From: a virus
DNA: 28,945 nucleotides
Virus record (IMG/VR): IMGVR_UViG_3300021197_001586
Location: 1 to 28,945 of that record
Strand: one strand, 5' to 3'
The notes beneath the pieces are model-generated. The model ran no database searches, was not told the DNA's origin, and worked only from the letters and a program-made list of their open reading frames with translations. Shown piece after piece: positions 1,123 through 28,803 of this stretch. Within the stretch, counting starts at the first letter, position 1. Every line of letters begins with the position of its first letter. The position numbers were made by a program, and so were the translations under genes.

Positions 1123-2051
1123 TGGATTATAAAACTTCTGGTGTTGATATTATCAAGGGTAGATCCTTTGTAGAGTATCTAAAGGTATTGGCACCTAACA
1201 TTGGTGGGTTTAGTGGAATGATGGAGATCTCACCAGGATATGAGAGACCTGTTCTAGTATCTGGTGCTGATGGTGTCGGAACTAAGATTAATATTTGTAG
1301 GATTGCTGATGATTACACCACTATTGGTCAGGATCTCGTTGCTATGTGCGTCAATGACGTTATATGTTCTGGCGCTAAACCATTATATTTTTTAGACTAT
1401 GTTTCTACAAAATCACTTGATGCTAACGTCAGTGATATTGTGTATGGAATTAATGTTGGTTGTGCTATGGCTGGAATGGAACTCATAGGTGGAGAAACTG
1501 CAGAACATTACAGACAAAATGATTATGACCTTGCTGGTTTCTGTACTGGTATTGTAGAGAAGAATCAGATTGTTGATGGTAGTAACATCCGAGCAGGTGA
1601 TGTAGTCATTGGTATTGAGAGTAGTGGACTTCATAGTAATGGATATACTCTTATTAATGATATGTTATGGAGACATAAGATTTTCTACAAGGATATGCCT
1701 GAGTTGCTGAGACCTACCACAATCTATGCTCGTCTTATTCAATACCTATTGGATGAGGTTCCTATCCTAGGCATGGCACACATTACTGGTGGAGGACTGC
1801 CTGAGAATCTCCCTAGATGTATTCCTAAGGGTTTGGGTGTGGACTTTGACTATGATGCTTGGGAGAGACCAGAACTCTTTAACAAGATCCAGGAGGCAGG
1901 AGACATTGCTGAAGATGAGATGCGTAATGTATTCAATCTTGGCATTGGATTCTGTTTAGTTGTGCCACGAGAGGTATCAGAACGTACTCGAACTTTGATT
2001 AGTGATACTCCATTTGGTATGCGATCATGGATTATTGGAGAAGTTAAATGA
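1122..2051 (+). CDS. purM: AIR synthetase PurM
   Basis: Phosphoribosylformylglycinamidine cyclo-ligase closes the imidazole ring (FGAM to AIR, ATP-dependent). The 309 aa are shorter than the roughly 345 aa usual for bacterial PurM, but the core motifs are in order: DGVGTK (50-55), GQDLVAMCVND (69-79), GGETAE (123-128), SSGLHSNGYTL (167-177) and ITGGGLPENLPR. A good ribosome site, AAAGGAG, lies at about 1105-1111. The start overlaps the previous stop (TAATG) and the end overlaps purS (ATGA). The reduction appears to come from shorter terminal regions rather than loss of catalytic blocks. Its product feeds the pathway towards CAIR, the PurC substrate, so both phage enzymes act in one route. Confidence 0.96.
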   Translation: MDYKTSGVDIIKGRSFVEYLKVLAPNIGGFSGMMEISPGYERPVLVSGADGVGTKINICRIADDYTTIGQDLVAMCVNDVICSGAKPLYFLDYVSTKSLDANVSDIVYGINVGCAMAGMELIGGETAEHYRQNDYDLAGFCTGIVEKNQIVDGSNIRAGDVVIGIESSGLHSNGYTLINDMLWRHKIFYKDMPELLRPTTIYARLIQYLLDEVPILGMAHITGGGLPENLPRCIPKGLGVDFDYDAWERPELFNKIQEAGDIAEDEMRNVFNLGIGFCLVVPREVSERTRTLISDTPFGMRSWIIGEVK

Positions 2052-2308
2052 AATTTAAAGCAAAGGTTTATGTGAGATTGAGGGCAGCAGTTGATGATTC
2101 TGCTGGTAATGCTGTGCGTCAAGCATGTGGTAGACTGTCCGATCTTGATATAAAAAAACTGCGATTGGGTAAATTGATTGAGATTGATTTTGATGCAGAA
2201 GATCAGAAGTATGCTGAGTTGGAAATTGATAGATTAAGCGATCGATTGTTTGCTAACGGAGTTATTGAAGACTATGAATATGTTGTGTGGGAAGTAAGCG
2301 ATAAGTAG
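2048..2308 (+). CDS. purS: FGAM synthetase small subunit PurS
   Basis: PurS is the dimeric small subunit that bridges PurL (synthetase) and PurQ (glutaminase) in the three-part FGAM synthetase of Gram-positive bacteria and cyanobacteria. The 86-aa length fits the family (about 80-85 aa). The N-terminal KAKVYVRLRAAVDD, the GNAVRQA segment, the RLGKLIEID strand and the closing NGVIEDYEYVVWE follow the PurS pattern of KVYV, G-AV, VRIGK and NTVIEDY. It starts on an ATGA overlap with purM. No purL or purQ lies in this window, so the partner subunits would come from elsewhere in the phage genome or from the host. It is last in the purine operon; the next gene has its own short leader. Confidence 0.88.
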   Translation: MKFKAKVYVRLRAAVDDSAGNAVRQACGRLSDLDIKKLRLGKLIEIDFDAEDQKYAELEIDRLSDRLFANGVIEDYEYVVWEVSDK

Positions 2309-2318
2309 TACTTTGTGC

Positions 2319-2324
2319 TATAAT
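2319..2324 (+). promoter_or_regulatory. Possible -10 element upstream of the metallopeptidase-like gene
   Basis: A perfect TATAAT lies in the 39-bp gap between purS and the next gene. No convincing -35 box is present at 16-18 bp upstream, so if real it would depend on a phage-modified or activated polymerase. AT-rich DNA makes chance matches common. Confidence 0.3.
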
Positions 2325-2347
2325 CAAACTATAATTCAACTTTAAAT

Positions 2348-3031
2348 ATGAAACTACGTAATGCTATCATTTCTGGATTGTTGCTAGGTATGGCGCACGG
2401 TATGTCTGTCAGTGCAGCAGAAGATAAGATCACTAAAGGATATAAAACCATGGATAGCATGGGTTGTATGCTTCTTCGAGAGTGTACCGATGATGTTGTA
2501 GAAGTATTTTCTTTACTGGACATCTCATCAAAGTATTCTAATACTGAAGAATTTACTCCAGTTGCAAATGAGTTTAATAATATGCTTGTGTCACTGAACC
2601 AAGTAGGTGTTAAAGTATTCCTTGCCGACGAGAAGTATTTCCCTGATGGTCATCGTGGTGTCTATCATACAGTATCCAATAACTTCTTTTTAAATAAGAA
2701 CTTCATGGATAAACCTGGCACACTCATGATGGTAATGCGTCATGAAGGATGGCATGCAGCACAAGATTGTATGGCAGGAACGATTGACAATAGTCTGATT
2801 GCTATCATCAAACCAGAGGATGAAGTTCCTATGATTTGGCGTGTGTTAGCAGAACGTACATACCCAGAAAATGCTGTGCCATGGGAAGCAGAAGCAGGTT
2901 GGGCTGGTCGCACTGAAGGTATGACAGCAGCAGCACTAGATGCCTGTGCTACTGGCGTTATGTGGGAGGTCTATCCACCAACACCACTGACCCGTAAGTA
3001 TCTGGTAGACTTCGGATATATTAAAGAGTAA
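2348..3031 (+). CDS. Putative exported HExxH zinc metallopeptidase-like protein
   Basis: A 227-aa protein. The first ~23 residues (Lys and Arg near the start, a Leu/Gly/Met-rich core, then VSAA) look like a cleavable signal peptide. The mature part contains HEGWHAAQDC at residues 132-141, an HExxH zinc-binding and catalytic signature. WEAEAGW (179-185) supplies candidate third-ligand glutamates (E180 or E182). Six cysteines, mostly paired in sequence, fit a periplasmic fold with disulfides. It sits between purS and the petE/petF/psbD cluster and overlaps the next start by 1 nt. Family assignment rests only on the motif, so substrate is unknown; a target in host periplasm, lumen or cell wall is possible. 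No strong ribosome site precedes the ATG. Confidence 0.6.
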   Translation: MKLRNAIISGLLLGMAHGMSVSAAEDKITKGYKTMDSMGCMLLRECTDDVVEVFSLLDISSKYSNTEEFTPVANEFNNMLVSLNQVGVKVFLADEKYFPDGHRGVYHTVSNNFFLNKNFMDKPGTLMMVMRHEGWHAAQDCMAGTIDNSLIAIIKPEDEVPMIWRVLAERTYPENAVPWEAEAGWAGRTEGMTAAALDACATGVMWEVYPPTPLTRKYLVDFGYIKE

Positions 3032-3240
3032 TGCTAACAGTTTGGATCCATACGGTAGCATTCTTTCAAGTGGTTGTGATGAATTGTATCCAACCAGTTA
3101 ACTGGCAATACTGCTACCGTGTTGACCAGTGGTTGATTCCTGATTTAGTACATGCTTGGCAGATTAAAAGTGGTGAGTATGTACCTTATCAGGATGAGAA
3201 GAACTATTTAAATGGGTTAGGAAGTCCTAACAAACTCTAA
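3031..3240 (+). CDS. Small hypothetical protein, 69 aa
   Basis: The ATG overlaps the last base of the preceding stop (TAATG), so the two genes are coupled. The N-terminal ~18 residues (VWIHTVAFFQVVVM) are hydrophobic and may form a short membrane or signal segment. The rest is polar and rich in Trp and Tyr (NWQYCYRVDQWLIP) and ends in YLNGLGSPNKL. I do not recognise the family. Coupling to an exported metallopeptidase-like protein hints that both act at the envelope, but this is inference. Confidence 0.65.
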   Translation: MLTVWIHTVAFFQVVVMNCIQPVNWQYCYRVDQWLIPDLVHAWQIKSGEYVPYQDEKNYLNGLGSPNKL

Positions 3241-3257
3241 GTATATTGATTTAGTAG

Positions 3258-3263
3258 TATAAT
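3258..3263 (+). promoter_or_regulatory. Possible -10 element upstream of petE
   Basis: A perfect TATAAT lies 25 bp before the plastocyanin ATG in a 48-bp gap. A TTGATT at 3246-3251 is only 6 bp away, too close to act as its -35 box. The site is suggestive only. Confidence 0.35.
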
Positions 3264-3288
3264 AGATAGTGTAGTCTAGTAAACTAAT

Positions 3289-3612
3289 ATGAAGTTTATT
3301 TTTGCATTAATTGCCACATTATTTCTTGCTGCTCCTGTGTGGGCAGTTGATGTATCAATGGGCGCTGGGGGAAACCTAGTATTTGAGCCTAATGATATTA
3401 CAATCTCTGCAGGTGACACGGTTCACTTCATCAATGAAGCATTACCTCCTCATAATATTATTGTAGAAGCACGTCCTGATCTCTCTAGAGAAGCACTACT
3501 GTTTGCTCCTGGAGAATCACAAGATGTTTTATTTGCTGACGCAGGAGACTATAACTTCTTCTGTGGTCCTCACCAGGGCGCAGGTATGACTGGCGTTGTA
3601 CATGTAAATTAG
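3289..3612 (+). CDS. petE: Plastocyanin
   Basis: Blue copper protein that carries electrons from cytochrome f to photosystem I in the thylakoid lumen. Of 107 aa, residues 1-19 form an apparently complete signal peptide (MKFIFALIATLFLAAPVWA). All four type-1 copper ligands are present: H55 (PPHN), C92, H95 and M100 in the CGPHQGAGM loop, which has the C-x2-H-x4-M spacing of plastocyanins. The mature domain of about 88 aa is slightly short for the family (about 97-99). It is followed 24 nt later by petF, so donor and acceptor carriers around photosystem I may be co-transcribed. petE is known from several cyanomyoviruses. There is no clear Shine-Dalgarno sequence before the ATG. Confidence 0.96.
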   Translation: MKFIFALIATLFLAAPVWAVDVSMGAGGNLVFEPNDITISAGDTVHFINEALPPHNIIVEARPDLSREALLFAPGESQDVLFADAGDYNFFCGPHQGAGMTGVVHVN

Positions 3613-3636
3613 AAAAAATTATTAACTATTAAAATC

Positions 3637-3930
3637 ATGTCATATAGCATCACAGTCCAATTGTCTGATGGCACAGAATCTACATTTTCTTGTGCTTCCG
3701 ATCAGTACATTCTCGAAGCAGCAGAGGATGCTGGGATTGATCTTCCCTCATCATGTAAAGCTGGTGCTTGCTCATCTTGTGCAGGTAAAGTTTTGAGTGG
3801 AGATCTTGATCAGGAGGAACAGTCATTTTTAGATGATGATCAACTGGAAGAGGGTTTTGCTTTACTATGCGTATCTTATCCAACATCTGATTGTGTTATT
3901 AGGACAGAGGTTGAAGAAGAACTTTATTGA
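3637..3930 (+). CDS. petF: [2Fe-2S] plant-type ferredoxin
   Basis: Soluble one-electron carrier accepting electrons from photosystem I. It can donate to FNR, nitrogen assimilation, bilin reductases or ribonucleotide reductase via thioredoxin. The 97 aa match the family. The cluster ligands are all there: C40, C45 and C48 in [14 protein letters not shown], and C78 in LLCVSYP. Acidic surface stretches ([18 protein letters not shown]) are typical for docking. It lies just after petE with 24 nt between. The sequence gives no sign of which partner is used; phage bilin reductases elsewhere in such genomes and host reductases are the likely acceptors. Confidence 0.96.
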
Positions 3931-3953
3931 TATCTTTTAGGTATTATAACTCA

Positions 3954-3982
3954 TTGATTATTATTGTAACGTTGTGTAAACT
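3954..3982 (+). promoter_or_regulatory. psbD: Putative sigma70-type promoter for psbD
   Basis: TTGATT (3954-3959) and TAAACT (3977-3982) are separated by exactly 17 bp, each matching 4 of 6 consensus bases. The predicted start would be about 20 nt before the psbD ATG. A short GGAG lies at 4003-4006, only 2 nt from the ATG, which is close for an efficient ribosome site. Confidence 0.4.
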
Positions 3983-4008
3983 AAATACCATAAGTTTACT
4001 ACGGAGTT

Positions 4009-5064
4009 ATGAGTACTTCAACACTTTCACCCCCGCAGAGAGGATGGTTCGATGTCCTGGATGATTGGCTTAAGAGAGACCGTTTCGTTTTTGTTGGCTG
4101 GTCTGGACTTCTTCTTCTTCCCACTGCTTACCTTGCTATTGGCGGTTGGCTTACTGGCACGACTTTCGCTACGAGCTGGTATACCCACGGACTCGCTACT
4201 TCCTATCTTGAGGGTGCAAACTTTCTTACAGCGGCAGTTAGCACTCCAGCTGACGCTATGGGTCATTCTCTTCTTCTTCTCTGGGGTCCTGAGGCTCAGG
4301 GAGATTTCGTCCGCTGGGTCCAACTTGGGGGACTCTGGAATTTCGTGGCTCTCCACGGTGCCTTCGCTCTCATTGGTTTCATGCTTAGGCAATTTGAACT
4401 TGCTCGCCTGATTGGTATCAGACCTTACAATGCGATTGCTTTTTCTGGTCCTATTGCTGTATTCGTGTCTGTATTCCTCATCTATCCTTTGGGACAGTCA
4501 TCTTGGTTCTTTGCGCCGAGTTTCGGTGTCGCGGCGATATTCAGGTTCCTTCTCTTCCTCCAGGGCTTTCATAATTGGACGCTCAATCCCTTCCATATGA
4601 TGGGAGTTGCTGGTATACTTGGAGGAGCACTACTCAGTGCTATCCATGGCGTTACAGTAGAAAATACATTGTATGAAGATGGTGAGCAGGCAAATACTTT
4701 TAAGGCATTCGATTCTACTCAGGAAGAAGAGACTTATTCAATGGTTACGGCTAACAGATTCTGGTCACAGATCTTTGGTATTGCTTTCAGCAACAAACGC
4801 TGGCTTCATTTCTTTATGCTATTCGTTCCAGTTATGGGACTTTGGACATCATCGATTGGCATCATTGGTCTGGCTCTTAATCTTCGTGCTTACGACTTTG
4901 TTTCTCAGGAGATCAGAGCGGCAGAGGATCCAGAGTTTGAAACTTTCTATACTAAAAACATCCTTCTCAACGAAGGACTGAGAGCATGGTTGGCACCTGC
5001 TGATCAACCACATGAGAACTTCATCTTCCCTGAAGAAGTTCTACCAAGAGGTAACGCACTGTGA
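4009..5064 (+). CDS. psbD: Photosystem II D2 protein
   Basis: The partner of D1 in the PSII reaction centre core, a five-helix thylakoid membrane protein. At 351 aa it is full length (cyanobacterial D2 is 352). Conserved stretches include [21 protein letters not shown] near the start, the tyrosine-D region FLIYPLGQ, the P680 and iron ligand histidines in [15 protein letters not shown], the second iron histidine in NKRWLHFFM, and the C-terminal [11 protein letters not shown]. The first ten residues ([10 protein letters not shown]) differ from the usual MTIAVGRAP type. Much of its third-position codon use looks more GC-rich than that of its neighbours, fitting descent from a host gene. Its stop overlaps the GTG of the DoxX gene. 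No intron interrupts it. Confidence 0.98.
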
Positions 5065-8917: not shown

Positions 8918-10303
8918 ATGGCTTTATTAGTATCCGATAATGGTGAACTTCAGTCGCTTAGATATTTGGTTAATTCCGATAGAAATATCCCTAGAAACCT
9001 TATCTTGAAACTGTATACTTCAAATACAGTTCCAACTGAGACTGATGTTCCCTCTCAGACAGCATATTACGAACCATATGACGCTACAGGTCTGGTTGGT
9101 TATGGAACAGAACCCTCTACGGGTTATCCACCAATCGTTAATGCACGTCATGACGAGGATTATAGCAGGCAGTATGGAATCTTCCTGAATGGTAGTGAGT
9201 GGTCCGTGAGAACCATTCTTAATCCAATTGCTACAACCACTGGTAGTGGTAACATTAATGAGTATACGATCACGGTATCTTCTGTTTCCAATATCGCGGT
9301 TGGACATTATGTAAGTGGTGGTAATGTTGGTAGTAACGCTGTTGTTGCAGCGATTGATGGTAATACCATTGTTCTTACCGTAAAGAATGCTGCTACCTTC
9401 TCTAGTCAGGCACTTGAGTTTGGTGTTGGTACAACAACTGCATCTTATCCTGAGCAGACTTTCACATTCACTTCTGCTGCTAATAACATCTATGGTTATT
9501 ATCTGATCAGAGCAAACAATCTGCCTGTCTCCCTGAACGGTGTTGAGCACGCAGTTAATGTTGGAACTGGATTGACTATTTCCAAGGCACAAACAAGTGG
9601 AACGATTGGTAATACTTTCGTTACTTTGAATCCCTTCCAGTGGTCTCCTGCAGTATCTGGTATTGGATCTGAGTTTACTCTGACTGTTGGATCTAACGTA
9701 GGTATCAATACAAGACAGAGAGTTATTGGTACTGGAATTGCCGAAGGAGCAAGAGTTGTTGGTATCATGAATACCACTACCATCGTTCTTGATAAAAAGA
9801 ATAGTGGAACAGTTTCTGGCGTTGCTACATTCTTCCAGGAAATTACCGAAGATCTTTGCGTAGGTATGGGTGTTACTCATGGTAACATCGGTGGTGAAGT
9901 TGCTGGTATTCTTGACGGAACTACCATTACTGGTATTGATGAAAAGACTGGTAAAGTATATCTGAGTAGCGAACTTCAGAATAACATTCAGAACGCTACT
10001 GGTAATATTGTTTACTTCAATTATGCTGAAGTAAGTGTTGGTGCGACTGAGCACGGACTGGTTGCTGGTGATATTCTTTATGTTGCTGCTGGTGCTGCTA
10101 ACACCACCACAACTTCTGGAACTTATACCATTCACACAACTGAAGATGTAAGTACCTTTACAACTACTCCTGCAATGACAGGTATTGGAAGTGCAACTCT
10201 TTATAGTAGCATCTTCTTCTCTGAGAGATTTACAAATGGTCCTTACAACATTCAGAACAACGGTGACCAAATCAAGGTTACTCTGAATGTCAGCCTCGAC
10301 TGA
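8918..10303 (+). CDS. Virion structural protein with three beta-repeats, 461 aa
   Basis: An abundant-virion-protein type gene: own late promoter, strong ribosome site, downstream terminator. Residues 1-110 form a distinct N-terminal domain (MALLVSDNGELQSLRYLVNS, LILKLYTSNTVP, YGIFLNGSEW). Three related beta-domains follow at about residues 110-165, 251-306 and 312-370, each with the pattern VG-x-V-G-x-I-x-G-x-V-x-I-x-G-TTIVL found in phage fibre and baseplate proteins. The C-terminal region has a further strand set (VSVGATEHGLVAGDILYVAA) and ends in GDQIKVTLNVSLD. It resembles structural proteins of cyanomyoviruses of unknown position. Codon choice is strong, fitting high expression. Confidence 0.7.
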   Translation: MALLVSDNGELQSLRYLVNSDRNIPRNLILKLYTSNTVPTETDVPSQTAYYEPYDATGLVGYGTEPSTGYPPIVNARHDEDYSRQYGIFLNGSEWSVRTILNPIATTTGSGNINEYTITVSSVSNIAVGHYVSGGNVGSNAVVAAIDGNTIVLTVKNAATFSSQALEFGVGTTTASYPEQTFTFTSAANNIYGYYLIRANNLPVSLNGVEHAVNVGTGLTISKAQTSGTIGNTFVTLNPFQWSPAVSGIGSEFTLTVGSNVGINTRQRVIGTGIAEGARVVGIMNTTTIVLDKKNSGTVSGVATFFQEITEDLCVGMGVTHGNIGGEVAGILDGTTITGIDEKTGKVYLSSELQNNIQNATGNIVYFNYAEVSVGATEHGLVAGDILYVAAGAANTTTTSGTYTIHTTEDVSTFTTTPAMTGIGSATLYSSIFFSERFTNGPYNIQNNGDQIKVTLNVSLD

Positions 10304-13324: not shown

Positions 13325-15265
13325 ATGGCAATTACTACAGAAACTTTTAAGGTAAATGCTGGGTGGGCGCATACGGATATTATCACCCAGATGGAACAGG
13401 CAATGACCTATCTTGATTGGCAGGGTAGTGAAATTACTGGATATATTGTTGGTCTTGGGACAATGATTGGTGGCGGTGACACCAATGCATCCGATTACTA
13501 TGAGGATGTGAGTCCAAAATCAACGAGTGGTGTTGGTACTCAAGCTACGTTCACTGTTTACAGAGATACTGAAGCTGTCAGGAGGGTTTGGGTTACTCGT
13601 CCTGGGGTTGGATATACCTCAGGAGAGGTAGTAACCTTATCTGCTGATGATATTGGGGGATTCTCAAATGGAGCTACCGACTTATCATTTAAGGTATGTG
13701 TTGATGAGATAGTTGGCAATGGAACAACGGTTGCTATTGCTTTTACTTCTATACAAAGTCAGCCCGCTGGAGACTATGGCACTACATATGCTTTTAAATT
13801 TGATGTACTTAATGCGGACAGGGCAGGAGTAGTTGGATCAGGAGTCAGCATAATCACTGTTAGAGAAGGTGATACAATTAGTATTGCTAACAGTTACAGT
13901 ACTAGTTATGATCCAGTTTTAGAATCTTCTCATACGTATATAAGTGAAACCTCAACTTACTCTCTCGCAGGATTTGATGTTGATATAAACCCTAGTGATG
14001 GATATTCGCAATACACATTTAAGATTGGGCAGGCAGGAACATATTATTGGAAGACAAATCAAAATAATCTTGGACCTGAGTGTGGGAGATTAATTGTTCA
14101 ACCTTGGAGTGGTGATCCTGCAGATAGAACTGTTGTTGGGTATGGAACAAATACTGTATTCTGGGATAAAGATCTTGCTAATAGTAGACCATGGGGAGTT
14201 CAAAAACATCAGATAGCAGCGAATAAATTATATGGACATACTTATAGAATATTCAGAAAAGATTCTAGTGACGGTGAACTAGATATTTCTGCTCATAGTG
14301 GATATAGTCATTATCCTGGAAATGAATATCATTCAAACGATAATAATGGGCAAACTAATACTCAGCATTATCATGGTGGAACTGGATATAAGTCAAGAAT
14401 TGCTGGTGCGGCAAACTTAGATTATGTTAGTGAAGCGATAGGAAATAATGATAACTCTAACCTCTCTCTTGAGCAGAGCACGGATGTTCTTACTTATAAT
14501 AGATTAACAACTATAACTCATGGCACTAATTATGGATTTGATTTAGATCTTAACGTGTTTAGATCTGCTATAGATCCAAGATTTGCTGTATTGTCTTATA
14601 GATATCCTACATTATCTTCAACACACCTCACTAGTAATACATTTGGTACATTCTTCTTCCATAATTTTGATTGTAGTTTCTGGGATTATGACCACGTATG
14701 GCTTTCTGGAATGACAGAGATAATTCCTACTACGGGTAATACAACATCACCAGATCTAACGTTTAGAACGCACTTATCCCCCAACTATCAGGAAACTTAT
14801 GCTAGTGGATGTAAACGAGCTGCTGAACACCCGTGGATGAGTTATAGGAGTTATAGTGCTGACGAGCAAAATTACGTTGACACTGTTTACGATAGTAGAT
14901 CTTATCCTCAGGATCTGAGCACTACTGCTGCTAGAATTTATTATAGATCTGAAGACCAACCAGCAACTTTTAGAGGTGGATATCCCCATAGTTCCGCTGA
15001 AAATGGTAGTAGTAGAGTATCTCCAGAAGCAAACTTTAATGCAGTAATTAAGGGACTACCTTTAAATGTAAACTTAATACCATGTCCATATTATCTTCCT
15101 GATGATTTTGGATTAATTGAGTTCTACTATAATGCTGCAAATGCAAACATTCAACAGGGAGATACATTTACAATCAGTCCAAGTGAAGTTTGGACAGTAA
15201 TCACTGCATCATATCATCAAACTACAGTTACTCGTGGAATTGCATTCTGTGCGAGGACTGTTTGA
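13325..15265 (+). CDS. Virion structural protein, 646 aa
   Basis: Starts 5 nt after the fibre gene with GAGG at 13311-13314. The N-terminal segment (FKVNAGWAHTDIITQMEQAM, YLDWQG) is helical and may attach to the baseplate or another fibre. The body is beta-rich; a section near residues 85-110 (VWVTRPGVGYTSGEVVTLSA) matches the short phage domain with GxGYTSGxxVT pattern. A His/Tyr/Ser-rich central region (HSGYSHYPGNEYHSNDNN, then QHYHGGTGYKS, around residues 327-358) could bind metal or sugar. It ends TRGIAFCARTV. The family is unnamed but the context and composition indicate a tail or baseplate part. Confidence 0.65.
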   Translation: MAITTETFKVNAGWAHTDIITQMEQAMTYLDWQGSEITGYIVGLGTMIGGGDTNASDYYEDVSPKSTSGVGTQATFTVYRDTEAVRRVWVTRPGVGYTSGEVVTLSADDIGGFSNGATDLSFKVCVDEIVGNGTTVAIAFTSIQSQPAGDYGTTYAFKFDVLNADRAGVVGSGVSIITVREGDTISIANSYSTSYDPVLESSHTYISETSTYSLAGFDVDINPSDGYSQYTFKIGQAGTYYWKTNQNNLGPECGRLIVQPWSGDPADRTVVGYGTNTVFWDKDLANSRPWGVQKHQIAANKLYGHTYRIFRKDSSDGELDISAHSGYSHYPGNEYHSNDNNGQTNTQHYHGGTGYKSRIAGAANLDYVSEAIGNNDNSNLSLEQSTDVLTYNRLTTITHGTNYGFDLDLNVFRSAIDPRFAVLSYRYPTLSSTHLTSNTFGTFFFHNFDCSFWDYDHVWLSGMTEIIPTTGNTTSPDLTFRTHLSPNYQETYASGCKRAAEHPWMSYRSYSADEQNYVDTVYDSRSYPQDLSTTAARIYYRSEDQPATFRGGYPHSSAENGSSRVSPEANFNAVIKGLPLNVNLIPCPYYLPDDFGLIEFYYNAANANIQQGDTFTISPSEVWTVITASYHQTTVTRGIAFCARTV

Positions 15266-16185
15266 TGGCAAATTATTCTCTTCCTAATTTAACGTCTGCC
15301 ATTGCTGGTGTTGTTACAACTTCATACTCAACAAAACAATTAAGATTTTCAAGGATAGGATTAGATTTGCCTGATGGTGTTGGTGTTGGTAGTGAGAAGA
15401 TCTTAGAATTGGATTCCATGGATCCTCTCTCTTATAATGGTGTGCCTAGTAATAGATATACTGGCATTGGAACTATTACAAAATGGTTTGATACTGGATT
15501 CCCTCAGAACAATGCTACATTTTTTGGTGCTTATTCTTTTGATGGTAAAAGTATTGTCTTTGCAGACGGCGGATATGCGGCATTAGATGATGGTCCAGAC
15601 TTCGATTTTGCAGGTGATTTTGCAATAGAGATCTCTTTCAATATGACTGGAACTCCAAATGCAACATATCCATCAGCATTAATTGCAAGTTGGAATACGT
15701 TTGGTAGTAGTGATAATAAGTTTATTATATTCATTGGTTCTACAGGTGGTATTGCCATGCAAATAAATGGTGAAGGGAATACTTATAGTCCTTCATCTAC
15801 AATATCTCTTAATACCGATTATCATATGGTCGTTAGTAGAAGAGATGGTGTGATTAAGTGGTGGTTGAATGGAGAAATTGTTTCTGAGATTAATAATTCT
15901 TCTGCAATAGAACCAGTTCTAGGGTATAAAATTGGAACTTATGATGGTAGTAGTGGTCAATCTTTTGAAGGTGCAATTAATCTTGTAAGAATGTATCGTG
16001 ATAGATCTTTAAGTGATATGGAAGTGCTAAGTTTGTATGATCAACAGATTAATAGAACTTTAATATCTGAGACTAACGGTACTAAAGGGATTAATAATTA
16101 TAGTTTAAGTAATACCTCTGGTTTTCCTGCTGCTGAATCAGGTAGACCAGTCACAGGACAGTTATATCCTAGGTTTACTAAATAA
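15265..16185 (+). CDS. LamG/concanavalin-like virion protein, 306 aa
   Basis: The ATG at 15265 overlaps the previous stop (TGATG) and is preferred over an in-frame ATG at 15190 lying inside the upstream gene. Residues ~90-260 show the LamG jelly-roll pattern: FDGKSIVFADGGYAALDDGP, FDFAGDFAIEISFNM, then LNTDYHMVVSRRDGVIKWWL, NGEIV and FEGAINLVRMYRDRSLSDME, with the typical closing motif of signal-recognition LamG domains (LYNRALS-type). Such domains bind carbohydrate. It ends YPRFTK. A role in binding host surface glycans, or in decorating the virion, is a fair inference from domain and neighbours. Confidence 0.7.
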   Translation: MANYSLPNLTSAIAGVVTTSYSTKQLRFSRIGLDLPDGVGVGSEKILELDSMDPLSYNGVPSNRYTGIGTITKWFDTGFPQNNATFFGAYSFDGKSIVFADGGYAALDDGPDFDFAGDFAIEISFNMTGTPNATYPSALIASWNTFGSSDNKFIIFIGSTGGIAMQINGEGNTYSPSSTISLNTDYHMVVSRRDGVIKWWLNGEIVSEINNSSAIEPVLGYKIGTYDGSSGQSFEGAINLVRMYRDRSLSDMEVLSLYDQQINRTLISETNGTKGINNYSLSNTSGFPAAESGRPVTGQLYPRFTK

Positions 16186-20847: not shown

Positions 20848-21306
20848 ATGGCTAACACCAAACGGGTACAACTGCGTAAGGGAACGGAAATAGAGCACTC
20901 TACATTTACGGGTGCCCTTGCTGAAGTAACTTTTGATACTGATAAAGGGACAATAAGAGTTCATGACGGACTCACGTTGTCTGGGGTAGAGATACAAAAA
21001 TCTCGATTGACTGATCTAGATGGTTCTAATAATAATGAAACATTGAGAACCAATATGAAATACTTTAGTGACACCTCAGCGGGTCCTTTTGCAGTTAATC
21101 TACCGACACTTCGATTTGTGGGTGATACAATTCACCTTGCAGATTCCAAATACCAATGGAATATAAATAATCTTACAGTATATGCTCAAGGTGGAGACCA
21201 AATAAAAGACAGCACTGGGTTCATCGATACATTTTTAAATTGTGACGTTGCTGGTGGATATGTCGAACTTATTTGGGAAGGAACTTTCTGGAGGATGTTC
21301 TCATGA
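20848..21306 (+). CDS. Tail-fibre protein with Mtd-type N-terminal domain, 152 aa
   Basis: Residues 4-50 (RVQLRKGTEIEHSTFTGALA, EVTFDTDKGTIRVHDGLTLS) match the short beta-domain at the N-terminus of the Bordetella phage major tropism determinant and of many tail fibres: R-x-G-T, E-x-T-x-D-T-D, R-V-H-D-G. The remainder contains FAVNLPTLRFVGDTIHLADS and a closing VELIWEGTFWRMFS, a type of terminal strand set often seen in phage fibre tips where NLP marks a beta domain after a water or noise-like region. No C-type lectin variable region, template repeat or reverse transcriptase is visible. The stop overlaps the next ATG. Confidence 0.75.
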   Translation: MANTKRVQLRKGTEIEHSTFTGALAEVTFDTDKGTIRVHDGLTLSGVEIQKSRLTDLDGSNNNETLRTNMKYFSDTSAGPFAVNLPTLRFVGDTIHLADSKYQWNINNLTVYAQGGDQIKDSTGFIDTFLNCDVAGGYVELIWEGTFWRMFS

Positions 21307-21676: not shown

Positions 21677-24600
21677 ATGGCTGATTTTAGATTAGGAAGA
21701 CTAAAATTTAATTGGAGAGGCGACTGGACTCCTAGCACCGAATATGTCATTGATGATATCGTCAAGTTCGGTGCTAATACTTATGTCGTCACTACCAATC
21801 ACACTTCTACTGCGAACGAAAGAGATTGGTATGACAATGATTTGTCGTACTGGAGTCTCCATGTTGAGGGTATTCGTAACGTAGGATCGTACTCTGCTGG
21901 TACGTTCTATAAAGTTAACGATATCCTTAAGTATGGTAACACTCAATATCGTGTTACTGCTGGTATTGGAACTACTGCTGGATTAGCATTTTCTGGAGAC
22001 GCCAATCCAAACGTTACGGCATACGTAGCTGGATTTAATGGCGAAGGACCATGGGATGCAGGAACGGTATATGAGACTGGAGACGTTGTTCTCTATTCTG
22101 GTAACTCTTATGTTGCAATTCAAACATCAGTACAGGGTGCAATTCCACCTACAGAATTAAATAGACAGTGGGAATTCCTTGCACAAGGTCATAATGCCGT
22201 AGGTTTGACCACTTATGAATCTGGTGTTACCTATTATAGAGGTGATCTGGTAACAGTTGGTGGTGATACTTATCAGGTAGATGCAACTTCTACTCAGGAT
22301 GTACACCCAACTAAGGGTCTTAGTGTTGGCATTGGGTCAACAGTGGTTGGTGTTGCTATAACCGCATGGACCCTTTACAATAGAGGTCTAAGATACGCTG
22401 GTTCTTACTCTACAACAACTGAGTATTACAGAAACGATGTTGTTGAGTATGCATCATCTTCCTATGTTGGTATTGGATCTACTTCTTTCCTTTACATTAC
22501 TCCTGGTTCTGACCCAAGCAAGTGGGCGGCACTCTCGGTTGGAGACTCTAATGCACTCCTGACTCAGCCTGGAGATCTTTTGGTTCGAGATACTACTTCT
22601 CCCACTAGATTGGCTATCGGTCAGACTTATCAGTCTCTCGGTGTAGGAACAGATTTGACTCCCCAATGGATGACCATTGGTGATTCCACTAGAATTTATC
22701 ATGTTGACCCCGAACTGGGTAAAGATACCTTCAATGGTATTACTCCAGATATGGCGTTTAGAACGCTTAAGGTTGCATGTGATAATGCAAGCGCGATTAC
22801 AGATATTACTGGATTCATTTATGATGAAACATCTGGTCTGTCCACAGTTACAGCACCAAACCACGGTATTCTTTATCCAAATATTACCGTTAGACTGAGA
22901 GATATTGAGTTCTCTTGCCTCTCTGGTGCAAATTCATATACAGTTAATGCATTCCAGTACGATAATGTTGCTGGTGTTGCTACCTGTACTGTTGGTGCAG
23001 CAATGACGGGTCTCCAAATTGGAGATACAATTAGACTTGATAACCTTGAATTCACCTGCCCAGGTGGTTCTGGCATTACGACGACTATATTCCCTGATGG
23101 AACAAGAGACGCTGGTTTTAACTTCACTGTAAGTGCAATCAACGGTCCTCAACAAGTTGAGATGGCAGTTGGTGTATCAACAATTCAGCACATCTATGTA
23201 TCTGGTGGTACATTGTTTGTTGGTGTTGATACTTCCTTCTTCCCAAGAAACGTTCTGACTTCATACTTTAATGTTATTGATGTTGTTGATAACAACACAT
23301 TTACATGTAACGTTGGTGTATCGACAATTAACCATGCTTATGTACAGGGTGGACAAGTTCTGAACCTGTCTCCTGCTGTTGTTAAACTGTCCTCTTCCGA
23401 ATTTGTTGAGCAACTTCCAATTGTTGTTCCTCCATTCACCTCTGTTGTTGGTTCTACGCTTAGATCTTCTAAGATTAGACCTGCTTCTGGTATATCTGCT
23501 GATGGTCTTACTCCTAACAACCGTCAGACCATGTTCCAACTGTCTGACGCAACAACGATTCAGGGTCTGAACGTTGATGGTATGGTTGGATTTGACTATG
23601 ATCCCGCTAAACCATTTGAACTTGAGTACTCTACAGTTAGAACTGGTGTTGGTACAACTGCTTGCGGTGTTTACTTCGCATTCAACCCCAACTCCCCAAT
23701 TCTGAACAAGTCACCTTACGTTAAGGACTGTACTGCATTCGGTAATCCTCCAACTGATGGTGGAAGTGGCGGTGCTGGTGTTGGTGTTCTTTGTGATGGT
23801 GGTGTCCATGATTCTGGATTCCGCACGATGGTCTTTGACGCCTTCACGAACGTTCTGAGTGATGGTGCTGGATTTATTCTTGATGCTGACGCTGGTTCTG
23901 AGATCGTCTCCTCCTTCACGTACTACTGTAAGTGGGGTTATTACGCAGGTGGTGGTTCTAGAATTCGTGGTGTTGGTGGTAATAATTCTTATGGTGACTA
24001 TGGTGTCATCGCATCTGGATTCTCTACTGCTGAGACTCCAAGATCCCTGAGACTCTTCGGTGATAAGGCAGAGACGCAAGTTGGTACTTTGAGTGGTACT
24101 GTTGCAATCGGTAACACCATGGTTGGTGGAACCTCTGGTGCAAGAGCAACCTTCATCAACGATCAAATCTCCGCTGATGCGATCTACTTCAAGTACTATC
24201 CTGGTTACGGTGATCCTAGCATCGGTGCTGGTCAAACCGTTGGTATTGGTACTACATCCTTCGTTCCTGGTGAGTATGTAAACTTCATCGGTGCTGGTAC
24301 AACTGGTGCTATTCTACTCTCTGCTGTTAGTGGAACTGTTGGTGGTCAGAAAGGCGTTCTCTTTGAACTTGACCTTGCTGATGGTGATAACTTACCACTT
24401 GTGGGTGATGCTATTGGTATTACTACTGTTGGTGTTGGTAGTGATCTGGTCAATGGTCAACCAAGATTCTACATTGTTAACAATGTAACTGGATTCACCA
24501 CAACTTATACTCAGTATAGAGGTGACGTTGGAGACTCTCCTGTTAACTATCCTGGTCGCGTAACTGTTACTGTATCACCTGAGAAGGGAATCAGAACACC

Positions 24601-25492
24601 TGATACTCGTACAGGAATTGGTAACACTATCACTGATGGTGGTTCCTTGGTTGAAATTAGAACTAGATTCTCTAACGCACGTCTGACTGGTCACGACTTC
24701 CTCTCGATTGGTGTTGGTAACAAGACTGAAACCAACTATCCAAATGTTAACGAGGCAAACGTACAGCAGGGCAATGAGACTAGCAACTTTGGTCCTGGTA
24801 GAGTCTTCTTCGTCTCTACTGACCAAGGCGGTAACTTCAGAGTTGGTGACTTCTTCTCCGTTAACCAGTTAACTGGTGCTGCTACCCTGGACGCTTCTGC
24901 GTTCAACCTGTCTGGTTTGACTGAACTGAGACTGGGTTCACTGGGTGGTCAGATTGGTGAGGCGATCAACGAATTCTCCTCTGACGAGACCATGAGTGGT
25001 AACTCCAATACTGCAACCCCAACTGAATTCGCGGTTCGCGGATTCGTTACTAGAGGTAACATGGGTGTTGAGCAGATGGTTCCACCTAAGGGAACAACTG
25101 CCCAGAGACCTGCAGGACCACTTCAAGGTGGATTTAGATTCAACACAGATCTGGGATCCTTTGAAGGATACAGTGGAACTGCTTGGGTGCCCATCGGTGG
25201 TCTGCAAAACGTAGATGTAAACACTACGTATACTGCTAGTGTCTTCCAGACTCTCTGGTGTGATACTCAGTCTGGTGGATTTACAGTTACTCTACCTCCA
25301 ACACCTAACAAAGGTGATGTTGTTAGAATCCTTGACGTTGCCAAGACATTTGATAGTAATACACTTACTGTTGGTAGAAATGGCAAACCTATCATGGGAG
25401 ATGCTGCGGATCTTACGGTTACTACTGAAGGTGCTGCATTTGATCTAATCTTCTACAATGATACGTATGGATGGAGAATATTCAGCGTATAA
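21677..25492 (+). CDS. Large fibre or spike with CBM5/12-like modules, 1271 aa
   Basis: AAAGGA lies before the ATG. Residues ~3-290 contain five modules of the pattern W/Y-x-Y-x(3)D-x-V-x-Y-x-G-x-x-Y (VIDDIVKFGANTYVV; VNDILKYGNTQYRV; TGDVVLYSGNSYVA; RGDLVTVGGDTYQV; RNDVVEYASSSYVG), as in chitin-type carbohydrate-binding modules CBM5/12. From about residue 574 to 800 a pectate-lyase-like beta-helix pattern is visible (FVEQLPIVVPPFTSVVG, TIQGLNVDGMVG). The C-terminus has VPPKGTTAQRPAGPLQGGFR and FNTDLGSFEGYSGTAWVPIG (1133-1174), a closing signature of cyanophage fibre proteins. A host-glycan-binding spike or long fibre is the likely role. Confidence 0.75.
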   Translation: MADFRLGRLKFNWRGDWTPSTEYVIDDIVKFGANTYVVTTNHTSTANERDWYDNDLSYWSLHVEGIRNVGSYSAGTFYKVNDILKYGNTQYRVTAGIGTTAGLAFSGDANPNVTAYVAGFNGEGPWDAGTVYETGDVVLYSGNSYVAIQTSVQGAIPPTELNRQWEFLAQGHNAVGLTTYESGVTYYRGDLVTVGGDTYQVDATSTQDVHPTKGLSVGIGSTVVGVAITAWTLYNRGLRYAGSYSTTTEYYRNDVVEYASSSYVGIGSTSFLYITPGSDPSKWAALSVGDSNALLTQPGDLLVRDTTSPTRLAIGQTYQSLGVGTDLTPQWMTIGDSTRIYHVDPELGKDTFNGITPDMAFRTLKVACDNASAITDITGFIYDETSGLSTVTAPNHGILYPNITVRLRDIEFSCLSGANSYTVNAFQYDNVAGVATCTVGAAMTGLQIGDTIRLDNLEFTCPGGSGITTTIFPDGTRDAGFNFTVSAINGPQQVEMAVGVSTIQHIYVSGGTLFVGVDTSFFPRNVLTSYFNVIDVVDNNTFTCNVGVSTINHAYVQGGQVLNLSPAVVKLSSSEFVEQLPIVVPPFTSVVGSTLRSSKIRPASGISADGLTPNNRQTMFQLSDATTIQGLNVDGMVGFDYDPAKPFELEYSTVRTGVGTTACGVYFAFNPNSPILNKSPYVKDCTAFGNPPTDGGSGGAGVGVLCDGGVHDSGFRTMVFDAFTNVLSDGAGFILDADAGSEIVSSFTYYCKWGYYAGGGSRIRGVGGNNSYGDYGVIASGFSTAETPRSLRLFGDKAETQVGTLSGTVAIGNTMVGGTSGARATFINDQISADAIYFKYYPGYGDPSIGAGQTVGIGTTSFVPGEYVNFIGAGTTGAILLSAVSGTVGGQKGVLFELDLADGDNLPLVGDAIGITTVGVGSDLVNGQPRFYIVNNVTGFTTTYTQYRGDVGDSPVNYPGRVTVTVSPEKGIRTPDTRTGIGNTITDGGSLVEIRTRFSNARLTGHDFLSIGVGNKTETNYPNVNEANVQQGNETSNFGPGRVFFVSTDQGGNFRVGDFFSVNQLTGAATLDASAFNLSGLTELRLGSLGGQIGEAINEFSSDETMSGNSNTATPTEFAVRGFVTRGNMGVEQMVPPKGTTAQRPAGPLQGGFRFNTDLGSFEGYSGTAWVPIGGLQNVDVNTTYTASVFQTLWCDTQSGGFTVTLPPTPNKGDVVRILDVAKTFDSNTLTVGRNGKPIMGDAADLTVTTEGAAFDLIFYNDTYGWRIFSV

Positions 25493-25547: not shown

Positions 25548-25555
25548 AATAAATA
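25548..25555 (+). promoter_or_regulatory. Likely T4-type late promoter variant
   Basis: AATAAATA matches 7 of 8 late-box bases and lies 26 bp before the first cysteine-rich gene, just after a terminator. The position is right for starting the three-paralogue unit. Confidence 0.5.
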
Positions 25556-25581: not shown

Positions 25582-26367
25582 ATGGCATCCTACGGAAGTT
25601 ACAAAAAAATTATACAAGGACAGATTCAGGATGGATCTGTTCCTAATAGTGCATTAGCAGCTGGTGCTGGATTAGCATACAATGTGCAGCATGTTTATGG
25701 AGCACCTACTGTCTGTACTACTGGTTGTTGCTGTCTTTGGACAGTTCCAACTGGTGTAAAGAGAGTCACATTTGAAATGTGGGGATCTGGTGGTAATGGG
25801 CATGGATTCTGCAGTTGTAGTCGCTGCCATCACTATGCAGGCGCTAGTGGTGGATATTATAATTCTAAGACTATTTCTGTTCAAGGAGGTTGGACTTATA
25901 CCATTTGTGCTGGTGGTGTTTATGGATGCTGCTCTAGAGAATGCTTGGGATGTCGAGGTTGCTCTTCATATGTAAATGGATGCAACTTAACCAACTTCTG
26001 TGCCCTTGGTGGTAAAGAGGGTTGTTCAAATACAAATTATGATACTGCATGTAATTCTAGCTTCTCATGCTGCCTTGCTCCCGTCTCTAATGGCGGTGAT
26101 TTCGGAATGGGAAATCATGCTGGTACATTTGGCGGTTCAATATTCTGTCATTGCAATTACGTATTCTCTTGTACGACTGGTGCTCCATTCCTCGCTTCTG
26201 GTGGTACTGGAGTAAATGCTTCAGTAAATTGTTGGGTTCGTTGTGGTTGCTGGACTGTACCTTATGCTACAGGTGGCCAGGGAGGTCAAACTACCTATTG
26301 TGGATCTAGTTGCTGCGGACAAGGTGGTACTGGTGGCAGTGGACTTGTTAAAATTACATATCTCTGA
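25582..26367 (+). CDS. Cysteine-rich, glycine-rich putative adhesin A, 261 aa
   Basis: First of three tandem paralogues. It has 28 cysteines in 261 residues. The N-terminal ~40 residues (MASYGSYKKIIQGQIQDGSV) form a shared attachment segment. The core has GCCCLWTVPTGVK (49-61), FEMWGSGGNG, CSCSRCHH (77-84), NGCNLTNFCALGG, FCHC, CWVRCGCW and CGSSCCGQGG, ending GSGLVKITYL. WTVPTGV and the closing GGxGGSGLVKI are signatures of glycine-rich phage adhesin domains, placed at distal fibre tips in other phages. The Cys/His clusters could form many disulfides or bind Zn, Fe or Fe-S. GAGGG ribosome site and a late-promoter-like box lie upstream. Confidence 0.75.
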   Translation: MASYGSYKKIIQGQIQDGSVPNSALAAGAGLAYNVQHVYGAPTVCTTGCCCLWTVPTGVKRVTFEMWGSGGNGHGFCSCSRCHHYAGASGGYYNSKTISVQGGWTYTICAGGVYGCCSRECLGCRGCSSYVNGCNLTNFCALGGKEGCSNTNYDTACNSSFSCCLAPVSNGGDFGMGNHAGTFGGSIFCHCNYVFSCTTGAPFLASGGTGVNASVNCWVRCGCWTVPYATGGQGGQTTYCGSSCCGQGGTGGSGLVKITYL

Positions 26368-27964
26368 TAGGAGTATACAACTAAAATGGCATCTTATAAC
26401 AGTTACAAAAAGATATCTGCAGAAGGTATTGCCGATGGTGCAGTTGACGCTGTAGACTTTTCAACATCATTGAATGGGACATTTGGCGTAAAATGGGTTT
26501 ATGCAAGCCCTAATGCATGTAGTACTGGTTGTTGCTGTCTTTGGACAGTTCCAACTGGTGTAAAAAAACTACAGATTCAAATGTGGGGATCTGGGGGTAA
26601 TGGTTCAGGTGCATGTTCCTGTAGTCGTTGTCACCATAATCTTGGTAGTCAAGGCGGATATTACAGTGTCAAGACTATTGATGTCACTGAAGGTTGGCAA
26701 TATACCGTTTGTGCTTCTGGTGTTTATGGATGCTGCTCTAGAGAATGTACTGCATGTTATGGATGTAGCTCCTATGTAAACGGATGCAACTTAAGTAACT
26801 TCTGTGCTCGTGGTGGACGAGGTGGATTTGCAAATACCTCTTGGAATACTCTTTGTACTGGAGTTAATGATTGTTGTATTGGTCCTACTACTAATGGCAC
26901 CGATTTTGCAATAATGTCTATGCATCCACATTGGGATGGCGCTGAGTTTGTTTATGATAGAGGATTTTGTCACTGTTATAATAGATCTACCTTCAGTAGT
27001 GGTGCTCCACTAATTGGAGCAACTACCCAAGAATCAATTAGAGCATGTTGGATTCGCTGCGGTTGTTACCAAGCTCCATATGGTGCTGGTGCTCAAAACG
27101 CTAAGACTACCTATTGTGGATCTAGTTGCTGCGGACAAGGTGGTACAGGTGGACCTGGACTTGTTAAAATAACTTACTTTTGATACTAAATACAATCATA
27201 GAGAGATCCTAAAAAATGGCACAGTATTCCAATTACAAAAAAGTTAGCGGGGGAAATTTACCTCCTGGATCAATTCCAGCGACTGCTTTAAATACCACTG
27301 GATTGGACACTTGGAATGTCAAGTGGTTTTGGGGATCTCCTGAAGAATGCACTCCTGGTTGTTGCTGTCTTTGGACAGTTCCAACTGGAGTAAAAAGAGC
27401 TCATATTGAGATGTGGGGTGCTGGAGGAAGTGGAACTGGTGCTTGCTCTTGTAGCCGCTGCCACGTATATCGTGGAGCTCAAGGTGGGTATTATAATTCC
27501 AAGATGATTGATGTTGACGAAGGTTGGACTTATACTGTTTGTGCTGGTGGTGTTTATACTTGTCGTAATAGAGAGTGTTGTGGTTGTCAGGGATGTACCT
27601 CCTTTGTAAACGGATGCAACTTAAGTAACTTCTGTGCTATTGGTGGTCATGGGGGAATTGCTTGCAACAGTTGGTCCCTAGGTTGCAATTCTTACATGCC
27701 ATGTTGCCTTGCACCTGCTTCTAATGGTGGTGATTTTGGAATGGGTAATCACCTTGGCGCAATGTGGAATCCTAAAGGATTTTTCTGTCATTGCCACGGT
27801 AGATATTCTATGCCAACTTCTGCACCATTTATTGGAACCCAAGTGCAGGTACAACAAAATTTCTGCTGGGTTCGTTGTGGTTGCTGGACTGTACCTTATG
27901 GTCATGGTGGGCAGAATGCTCAGACTAATTATTGTGGATCTAGTTGCTGCGGACAAGGTGGTAT
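25721..27964 (+). repeat. DNA-level conserved blocks shared by the three Cys-rich genes
   Basis: A 40-bp block encoding TGCCCLWTVPTGVK-type sequence is identical at 25721-25760 and 26525-26564 and differs by one base at 27355-27394. A second 40-bp block encoding TYCGSSCCGQGG is identical at 26291-26330 and 27107-27146 and nearly so at 27925-27964. Synonymous positions are also kept there, while flanking regions diverge. Confidence 0.8.
26386..27183 (+). CDS. Cysteine-rich, glycine-rich putative adhesin B, 265 aa
   Basis: Second paralogue, 18 nt after the first and with TAGGAG ahead of its ATG. It holds 26 cysteines. The blocks GCCCLWTVPTGVK, CSCSRCHH, CCSREC, NGCNLSNFCARGG, FCHC, CWIRCGC and CGSSCCGQGG are kept at the same spacing as in copy A. 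The middle region differs most: MSMHPHWDGAEFVYDRG replaces the GMGNHAGTFGG stretch, adding two more histidines. It ends GPGLVKITYF. Diversified loops on a conserved Cys framework are expected for receptor-binding tips. Whether all three proteins sit in one particle or are alternatives cannot be seen. Confidence 0.75.
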   Translation: MASYNSYKKISAEGIADGAVDAVDFSTSLNGTFGVKWVYASPNACSTGCCCLWTVPTGVKKLQIQMWGSGGNGSGACSCSRCHHNLGSQGGYYSVKTIDVTEGWQYTVCASGVYGCCSRECTACYGCSSYVNGCNLSNFCARGGRGGFANTSWNTLCTGVNDCCIGPTTNGTDFAIMSMHPHWDGAEFVYDRGFCHCYNRSTFSSGAPLIGATTQESIRACWIRCGCYQAPYGAGAQNAKTTYCGSSCCGQGGTGGPGLVKITYF

Positions 27965-28001
27965 GGGCGGTAGCGGACTTGTAAAAATTACTTACGTCTG
28001 A
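27216..28001 (+). CDS. Cysteine-rich, glycine-rich putative adhesin C, 261 aa
   Basis: Third paralogue, 32 nt after copy B, with 27 cysteines. It shares GCCCLWTVPTGVK, CSCSRCH, NGCNLSNFCAIGG, FCHCHG, CWVRCGCWTVPYG and CGSSCCGQGG. It differs in the N-terminal segment (MAQYSNYKKVSGGNLPPGSI), in the TCRNRECCGCQGC cluster that replaces the CCSREC type, and in IACNSWSLGCN. It ends GSGLVKITYV and is followed by a strong terminator. A weak ACTAAATA box at 27185-27192 is only a 6/8 match to the late promoter. Close relatedness of the three genes suggests tandem duplication. Confidence 0.75.
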   Translation: MAQYSNYKKVSGGNLPPGSIPATALNTTGLDTWNVKWFWGSPEECTPGCCCLWTVPTGVKRAHIEMWGAGGSGTGACSCSRCHVYRGAQGGYYNSKMIDVDEGWTYTVCAGGVYTCRNRECCGCQGCTSFVNGCNLSNFCAIGGHGGIACNSWSLGCNSYMPCCLAPASNGGDFGMGNHLGAMWNPKGFFCHCHGRYSMPTSAPFIGTQVQVQQNFCWVRCGCWTVPYGHGGQNAQTNYCGSSCCGQGGMGGSGLVKITYV

Positions 28002-28071: not shown

Positions 28072-28079
28072 TATAAATA
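28072..28079 (+). promoter_or_regulatory. T4-type late promoter
   Basis: A perfect TATAAATA box directly after the terminator, 37 bp before the chaperone-like gene. An AAGGAG lies at about 28085-28090, further than usual (over 25 nt) from the ATG at 28117. Confidence 0.8.
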
Positions 28080-28116: not shown

Positions 28117-28803
28117 ATGGCAACACAACAAATCAAAGTCGAGTTTGATCTCGCTCTTCCTAACAACTTTCTGGTAGATCATAGCACTAGTGCTAATAAA
28201 ACTCGTAAATCAGAATATAATGGACCAGATAAAATATATCTACAAATCGGTGCAGATGGCCAAGAAGTTGCTGGTCCACTGACTGAGGATGATATTATTG
28301 ATGGTCGTCCAATGCCAGCAGATTGCGTTGATTGGATGGAAATTGACTGTGCAACTGATCCTCTTGTTTGTCAACTCAGAGGACCTGTCTCTAATGAAAT
28401 TGAGGAAGAATATACTGGAGAACTTGCACATCCTGGATCACCAGTTGTAGCAGGATATCCTCAGTTCTCTTATTCAACTCCAATTATGCCTGGAGATATC
28501 TATGACAAAAATACTATGGTAATTGTTGATGGATCTCCTACCTTCAATAGATATACTGTACCCCAAAAACTTCATGATAAGGATGCCGATTTAACTTGGG
28601 AAGATATTAGAAAGCATAGAAATCAGATGCTTGAGCAAACTGATGCTAGAACTGGTACTGATATGCCAGATTCAATTCTCAATGAGTGGAAAGCATATCG
28701 AGTTCTTTTGAGAGATCTTCCTGCAACTCTCGAAGCAGCTGGTGTAGAACCAAATATTGCATACTATATGTTCCCTGAAGCACCTGGAGTTGCTCCTGAG
28801 TGA
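28117..28803 (+). CDS. Putative tail or fibre assembly chaperone, 228 aa
   Basis: The C-terminal third (residues ~155-205) has the pattern LTWEDIRKHRNQMLEQTDAR, DMPDSILNEWKAYRVLLRDL then PATLEAAG: W-x-x-I-R-x-x-R-N-x-x-L, T/D, W-x-x-Y-R-x-x-L-R-D-L-P. This is the signature of phage tail assembly chaperone-like proteins (Phage_tail_APC type). The N-terminal part starts MATQQIKVEFDLALPNNFLV and holds IYLQIGADGQEVAGPLTEDD and a WMEIDC segment. It follows the adhesin-like genes, the usual place for a fibre chaperone, and has its own late promoter. It may be a virion part rather than a chaperone; the APC-type domain occurs in both contexts. Confidence 0.65.
   Translation: MATQQIKVEFDLALPNNFLVDHSTSANKTRKSEYNGPDKIYLQIGADGQEVAGPLTEDDIIDGRPMPADCVDWMEIDCATDPLVCQLRGPVSNEIEEEYTGELAHPGSPVVAGYPQFSYSTPIMPGDIYDKNTMVIVDGSPTFNRYTVPQKLHDKDADLTWEDIRKHRNQMLEQTDARTGTDMPDSILNEWKAYRVLLRDLPATLEAAGVEPNIAYYMFPEAPGVAPE

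Follow-up and report, generated by a model that had tools for sequence, protein, structure and literature searches.

A conserved triplet of cysteine-rich, glycine-rich putative adhesin-tip proteins in cyanomyoviruses

Introduction

By the usual description, a phage fiber tip is a homotrimer, or a single adhesin mounted on one, with few cysteines. The tip of the T-even phages and S16 is gp38, a glycine-rich receptor-binding protein encoded by one gene just 3' of the long fiber gene and carrying a beta-helix middle domain. In the cyanophage Pam3, gp24 is a trimer that was detected in virions by mass spectrometry and is proposed to serve in host recognition, and its head combines a TNF-like fold with a glycine-rich receptor-binding region (PDB 7YPX; PMC9608196). 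The Pam3 tip is folded by the chaperone gp25, encoded in the adjacent gene, and gp24 has been compared with gp38 of T-even phages and S16 in the same work, in which the text searched makes no mention of cysteine or disulfide (PMC9608196). Fiber tips have also been proposed to carry metal, in what is called the 'Ferrojan horse' idea, with repeated HxH as the iron motif of T4 gp37 (PMC11705849).

Here, we analyze a virus record of 28,945 bases, referred to throughout as the window, in which three consecutive cysteine-rich genes had initially been annotated as putative phage adhesins. The window contains psbA, genes for purine synthesis and a 2Fe-2S ferredoxin gene, a combination familiar from T4-like cyanophages, and the relatives of the triplet lie in Kyanoviridae; the window is thus, on its sequence, a cyanomyovirus fragment. 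Its auxiliary metabolic genes occupy positions 158-5064 (SAICAR synthetase, AIR synthase, the ferredoxin at 3637-3930 and photosystem II D1 at 4009-5064). A megablast search of the right part of the window against phages gave no match.

Results

Three tandem genes with about 10% cysteine

The triplet lies between a long tail fiber gene and a candidate fiber-assembly gene, with the features listed here.

21677..25492, + strand: long tail fiber protein, 1271 aa, with CBM_5_12 modules and a conserved C-terminal domain
25549..25555, + strand: T4-type late-promoter core ATAAATA, 27 bp upstream of copy 1
25582..26367, + strand: copy 1, putative glycine-rich adhesin-tip protein, 261 aa, 28 Cys; phrog_4205 at E 1.3e-46, Gly_rich_2 at 26.0 bits against a cut-off of 24.3
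26386..27183, + strand: copy 2, 265 aa, 26 Cys; forms a position-specific clade across all loci, support 97/90
27216..28001, + strand: copy 3, 261 aa, 27 Cys; modeled with AlphaFold2
28073..28079, + strand: late-promoter core ATAAATA, 38 bp upstream of the chaperone gene
28117..28803, + strand: candidate tail-fiber-assembly chaperone, 228 aa; Phage_tail_APC, phrog_9740

The coordinates, lengths and cysteine counts given for the three genes in the initial annotation proved exact. Cysteine makes up about 10% of each copy and 0.73% (60/8180 residues) of the 24 other open reading frames checked in the window, which excludes chance as the source of these counts (binomial probability 1e-23 to 4e-21 for each count). 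The clusters that had been called invariant (GCCCLW, CSCSRCH, NGCNLxNFC, FCHC, CWxRCGC and CGSSCCGQGG) occur in each of the copies; among relatives most of the cysteines are indeed invariant, but the end motif often reads CG-RCCGQGG and NGYNL is commoner than NGCNL.

All three copies fall in phrog_4205, a PHROG family of unknown function, share 50-65% identity within a locus and begin with a nearly identical N-terminus, MAxYxSYKK. The Gly_rich_2 domain (PF21722) is detected above its gathering cut-off in copies 1 and 3 (26.0 and 30.1) and below it in copy 2 (18.9), and it matches 52 of 97 family members at E 0.01 or better. NCBIfam holds no meaningful match for the cysteine-rich proteins, a profile search of all PDB sequences gave none at E 1, and phmmer with the S-CAM1 relative gave none at E 5; gp38 of T-even phages and S16 gave no PDB sequence match and is absent among the fold matches listed. 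In a separate sequence search, the S-CAM1 relative does match a tail fiber family.

Three further open frames were noted elsewhere in the window. Just 5' of the fiber gene, a 152-aa gene (20848-21306) carries the N-terminal domain of the Major tropism determinant (PF18454) and matches a tail-protein PHROG, and a 306-aa protein of the fiber region (15265-16185) has a concanavalin A-like lectin domain (Laminin_G_3). A 416-aa open frame on the minus strand (9020-10270), antisense to the gene at 8918-10303 and devoid of a PHROG match, is probably a coding-bias shadow.

A predicted fold shared with phage fiber tips

The AlphaFold2 monomer model of copy 3, built from a 97-row alignment, reached a pLDDT of 79.8 and a pTM of 0.77. 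Its predicted TNF-like base spans approximately residues 31-67, 93-110, 129-133 and 255-261, with glycine/cysteine loops between these segments, a division that we read from the DSSP string. The best PDB match found by Foldseek is the Pam3 fiber (7ypx_A, E 1.9e-6), and VIA-align superimposes residues 31-261 on Pam3 gp24 with a Z of 16.5 over 194 residues at 3.2 A. The next matches are the Bxb1 tail tip (Z 11.6) and the TNF-like and glycine-rich domains of ALK/LTK (Z 8-10), all remaining matches scoring at most 4.1. Since the ALK match is to a non-fiber protein, the TNF-like/glycine-rich fold alone is no proof of trimerization. Relatives in a viral fold library are glycine-rich domain and tail fiber proteins, Syn9 gp38 among them. 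The most variable columns of the family fall within residues 145-215, and the base is conserved. The N-terminus of copy 3 comprises about 30 residues with one short helix (12-14) at a pLDDT of 46-65, and the long helical docking domain of the Pam3 type is absent.

The triplet is kept in number and order

A tblastn search of phage genomes recovered S-SSM7, S-SSM6a and Sf-FS3 at 55-57% identity, as well as more remote matches in S-CAM1, P-SSM2/P-SSM5 and single-cell virus records; S-CAM3 was added by further searches. IMG/VR was scanned twice, yielding 42 loci and then the best 80 of 173 confirmed places. In total, more than 200 distinct relatives were obtained from cyanomyovirus contigs, 218 of which entered the analysis of cysteine columns. 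Three matches in metagenome-assembled bacterial genomes lie on contigs with the phage locus and were taken as binned phage DNA.

Exactly three tandem copies occur in 112 of the 127 locus records, that is, in all suitably complete ones of this family; the other 15 are either cut (L043 and L122) or of the S-CAM and P-SSM2 types, which the profile detects in part. Some of the 112 records share a contig and overlap, and 76 are distinct as judged by their upstream contexts. The presence of the same triple locus in other cyanomyoviruses, proposed initially as a check, was thus observed in every suitably complete related locus retrieved, which makes the triplet a conserved system and not a local oddity. 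S-CAM1 and S-CAM3 also carry three cysteine-rich copies, and P-SSM2 and its relatives carry two, with a gene of 225 aa in between. In P-SSM2 this gene (305; L048:15837-16511) has no PHROG match, and its N-terminus is weakly like that of the window's chaperone candidate (hhalign E 9e-5, probability 59). Five loci, those of isolates read with cysteine-rich tips (L046, L047, L048, L049 and L050), have a carbamoyltransferase and nucleotide-sugar cluster a few kb downstream; the window stops short of this region.

In a tree of 78 proteins, copy 2 forms one clade (97/90), and copies 1 and 3 form position-specific clades within three lineages, a single clade for either being marginally rejected (p-AU 0.045 and 0.032). 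Together with the identity within loci, this pattern indicates that the set is old and its order fixed, with a possible early exchange of sequence between copies 1 and 3. Given how marginal the rejection is, the tree does not distinguish conversion between these two copies from an early history that was merely short.

A neighboring candidate chaperone gene and late-promoter cores

The window's candidate chaperone scores 33.5 bits against Phage_tail_APC (PF16778; cut-off 26.6), and a gene of this family follows the triplet within 300 bp in 110 of 111 loci. The model of the window's protein, at a pLDDT of 92.4, is rich in beta structure in its N-terminal part and helical toward the C-terminus, and it matches Pam3 gp25 (7ypx_a) weakly, with a VIA Z of 3.2 over 70 residues; the link to gp25 is therefore drawn from sequence and position. 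Of 76 loci, 74 have a late-promoter core no more than 90 bp ahead of the chaperone gene; a core precedes copy 1 in 32, copy 3 in 19 and copy 2 in none (coding control 1.1%). Across the whole window the core occurs 8 times against 7.6 expected by chance, so it is the placement of the cores that carries the evidence for promoters.

Cysteine relocation favors bonded thiols

Seventeen cysteine columns are occupied in 99.5% or more of the 218 sequences, and fewer sites are also conserved in the S-CAM1 and P-SSM2 relatives. In copy 3, our reading of the DSSP string assigns 22 of the 27 cysteines to the glycine-rich loops and the other 5 to the beta base. Cysteine is found at either 104 or 134 in 200 of the 218 sequences (140 and 60, respectively), at neither in 18 and never at both, an exclusivity with a median p of 0.001 in a sign test on independent pairs; the vacant site holds an aromatic residue in most sequences. 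As these residues flank model strands 105-110 and 129-133, they could be neighbors. Residues 142 and 163 likewise carry cysteine in 16 and 194 sequences, never at both, and in locus L041 copies 1 and 3 have extra cysteines at 132 and 137 that are present only jointly. The retention of one thiol while its site moves is suggestive of a bonded thiol. Cysteine relocation at constant number and paired gain, as seen in the alignment, thus favor bonded thiols, most simply disulfides reinforcing the glycine-rich loops. The initial annotation's disulfide-locked adhesin is to this extent favored, though not as an established bond.

Not every cysteine fits this scheme. The totals are odd in 123 of the 218 sequences, so some thiols must stay free, link to another chain or bind a different partner. 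Cysteines 45, 163, 223 and 244, moreover, are lost without an obvious partner, which again means that not all are paired within a chain; the model in which all cysteines pair simply within the chain was dropped given the odd totals. Two other patterns were set aside. Columns 243 and 244 seem mutually exclusive, but they are adjacent and gapped, and the pattern is produced by the alignment. In one lineage (L062, L086, L087, L089, L090, L096 and L106), C79 is gone from all three copies and copy 3 gains C195, and the joint loss, considered as contact evolution between copies, is explained equally well by local gene conversion.

Discussion

On balance, our findings are best explained if the three gene products are subunits of the receptor-binding tip on a cyanomyovirus tail fiber, stiffened by cysteine and acting together. 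That the genes encode proteins with the fold and role of an adhesin tip is very probable from model and sequence, and the initial designation as phage adhesins is borne out by the match to the Pam3 fiber tip (PMC9608196) and by the position of the genes between the long fiber gene and the fiber-assembly gene. Each subunit would dock through a short N-terminal segment and have a TNF-like beta sandwich as its base, with glycine-rich loops bundled at the distal end, as in the tip of Pam3 gp24. The subunits would be produced late in infection and folded with the aid of the adjacent tail-fiber-assembly protein, a route that we regard as likely, and mounted on a tail fiber, the likely docking partner being the 1271-aa fiber encoded just upstream. 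The cysteines, mostly in the glycine-rich loops, would then form bonds, in the simplest case disulfides that arise when the phage is released into oxygenated seawater, and would stiffen loops otherwise held by glycine packing alone; disulfides have somewhat better than even standing in our assessment.

The retention of exactly three diverged copies in fixed order suggests joint action, most likely with each copy supplying one chain of a single tip. The strict three-ness, the fixed order, the common N-terminus and the trimeric relative together point to a heterotrimer, a tentative proposal to which the P-SSM2-type phages, with two copies instead of three, run counter. Only slightly less plausible is that each copy forms a homotrimeric tip of its own, the virion carrying a mixture for several receptors or hosts. 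Pam3 gp24 is itself a homotrimer (PMC9608196), Syn9 has several low-cysteine glycine-rich proteins at a like position, and the copy-specific columns cluster in the variable residues 183-215, as expected of different receptor sites. A free repertoire, however, should vary in number, and exactly three copies in one order are found in all suitably complete loci; the near-identical N-terminus, moreover, suggests one docking site. The most elaborate form of the heterotrimer, an obligate, asymmetric and covalently locked tip in which diverged cysteine-rich glycine-lattice subunits would be linked within and between chains by disulfides, or by a shared metal centre, is in our view rather doubtful.

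Iron or Fe-S loading of the tip is possible, and the clustered cysteines, with His192 of the CHC motif, might bind Zn, Fe or Cu or hold an Fe-S cluster, either to stabilize the tip or to exploit host metal uptake, though we consider a metal-loaded tip unlikely. The CxxC and CxxCxxC spacings, the presence of C-H-C with H192 among the invariant residues, the frequent odd cysteine totals, and the replacement of cysteine by Asp/Asn at 223 and by His at 244 in 39 rows would all suit such a site. Against it, the P-SSM2 relatives lack the CHC motif (the alignment being less sure late in the protein) as well as C121 and C124 of the CxxCxxC run, and an Fe-S centre there was dropped for this reason; the two extra cysteines found only together in L041 suit a disulfide better. 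HxH is not conserved, His at 194 occurring in 43% of copy 3 only and, in the window, just as H192-C193-H194 of copy 3. The initial suggestion of metal or Fe-S loading, with its link to host iron uptake, thus found no specific support.

That the proteins are instead made late as soluble or secreted cysteine-rich proteins, for instance metal or redox buffers, sharing only the fold is very improbable: we found no report of virion mass spectrometry for any family member in the literature searched (Sullivan 2010 itself analyzed only S-SM1 virions) and the S-SSM7 copies are annotated hypothetical, but the best fold matches are tail tips, the locus sits between a fiber gene and a fiber-assembly gene with late-promoter cores, and variable distal loops are carried on a conserved base.

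If our preferred reading of cysteine-stiffened tip subunits acting together is true, a widespread marine cyanophage family with three diverged tip proteins of 10% cysteine in strict order would show how an adhesin may be hardened by cross-linking and made asymmetric, and it would offer a concrete test of metal carriage by the tips of marine phages. The initial annotation had ranked the locus as a candidate undescribed system. The fold and the locus layout are in fact already known; the cysteine-rich, obligately triple version did not turn up in the papers searched, none of which combined the terms cysteine-rich, glycine-rich, tail fiber and phage.

Comparison with known systems

The best solved-structure match, Pam3 gp24/gp25, shares with the window the TNF-like base, glycine-rich and variable distal loops and an adjoining fiber-assembly gene, but gp24 is the product of a single gene and has a long helical stalk at its N-terminus, whereas the window encodes three diverged proteins, short at the N-terminus and with about 10% cysteine, beside a separate long fiber. 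The gp38 of T-even phages and S16 likewise forms a glycine-rich tip that binds the receptor, and its gene directly follows that of a long fiber, but it is encoded by one gene, against three here, and has a beta-helix middle domain. T4 gp37 differs in that its iron is held by the repeated HxH that the window family does not conserve. In the related cyanomyovirus Syn9, gp38 and gp39 (phrog_863, tail fiber assembly) are glycine-rich fiber proteins encoded 3' of fiber genes, and gp38 is a fold match, but they have only 2 and 7 cysteines in 266 and 392 aa and belong to a different PHROG family. The true relatives, cysteine-rich and at the same place in the genome, are S-SSM7 114-116, Sf-FS3 97-99, S-CAM1 105-107, S-CAM3 100-102 and P-SSM2 304/306. 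The S-CAM copies are longer (299-329 aa) than those of the window, and the two P-SSM2 copies, separated by a gene where the others have three in tandem, reach 355-356 aa with a heptad-like N-terminus. All of these proteins are annotated hypothetical, and our analysis now names them as the likely receptor-binding proteins of S-SSM7, Sf-FS3, S-CAM1, S-CAM3 and P-SSM2.
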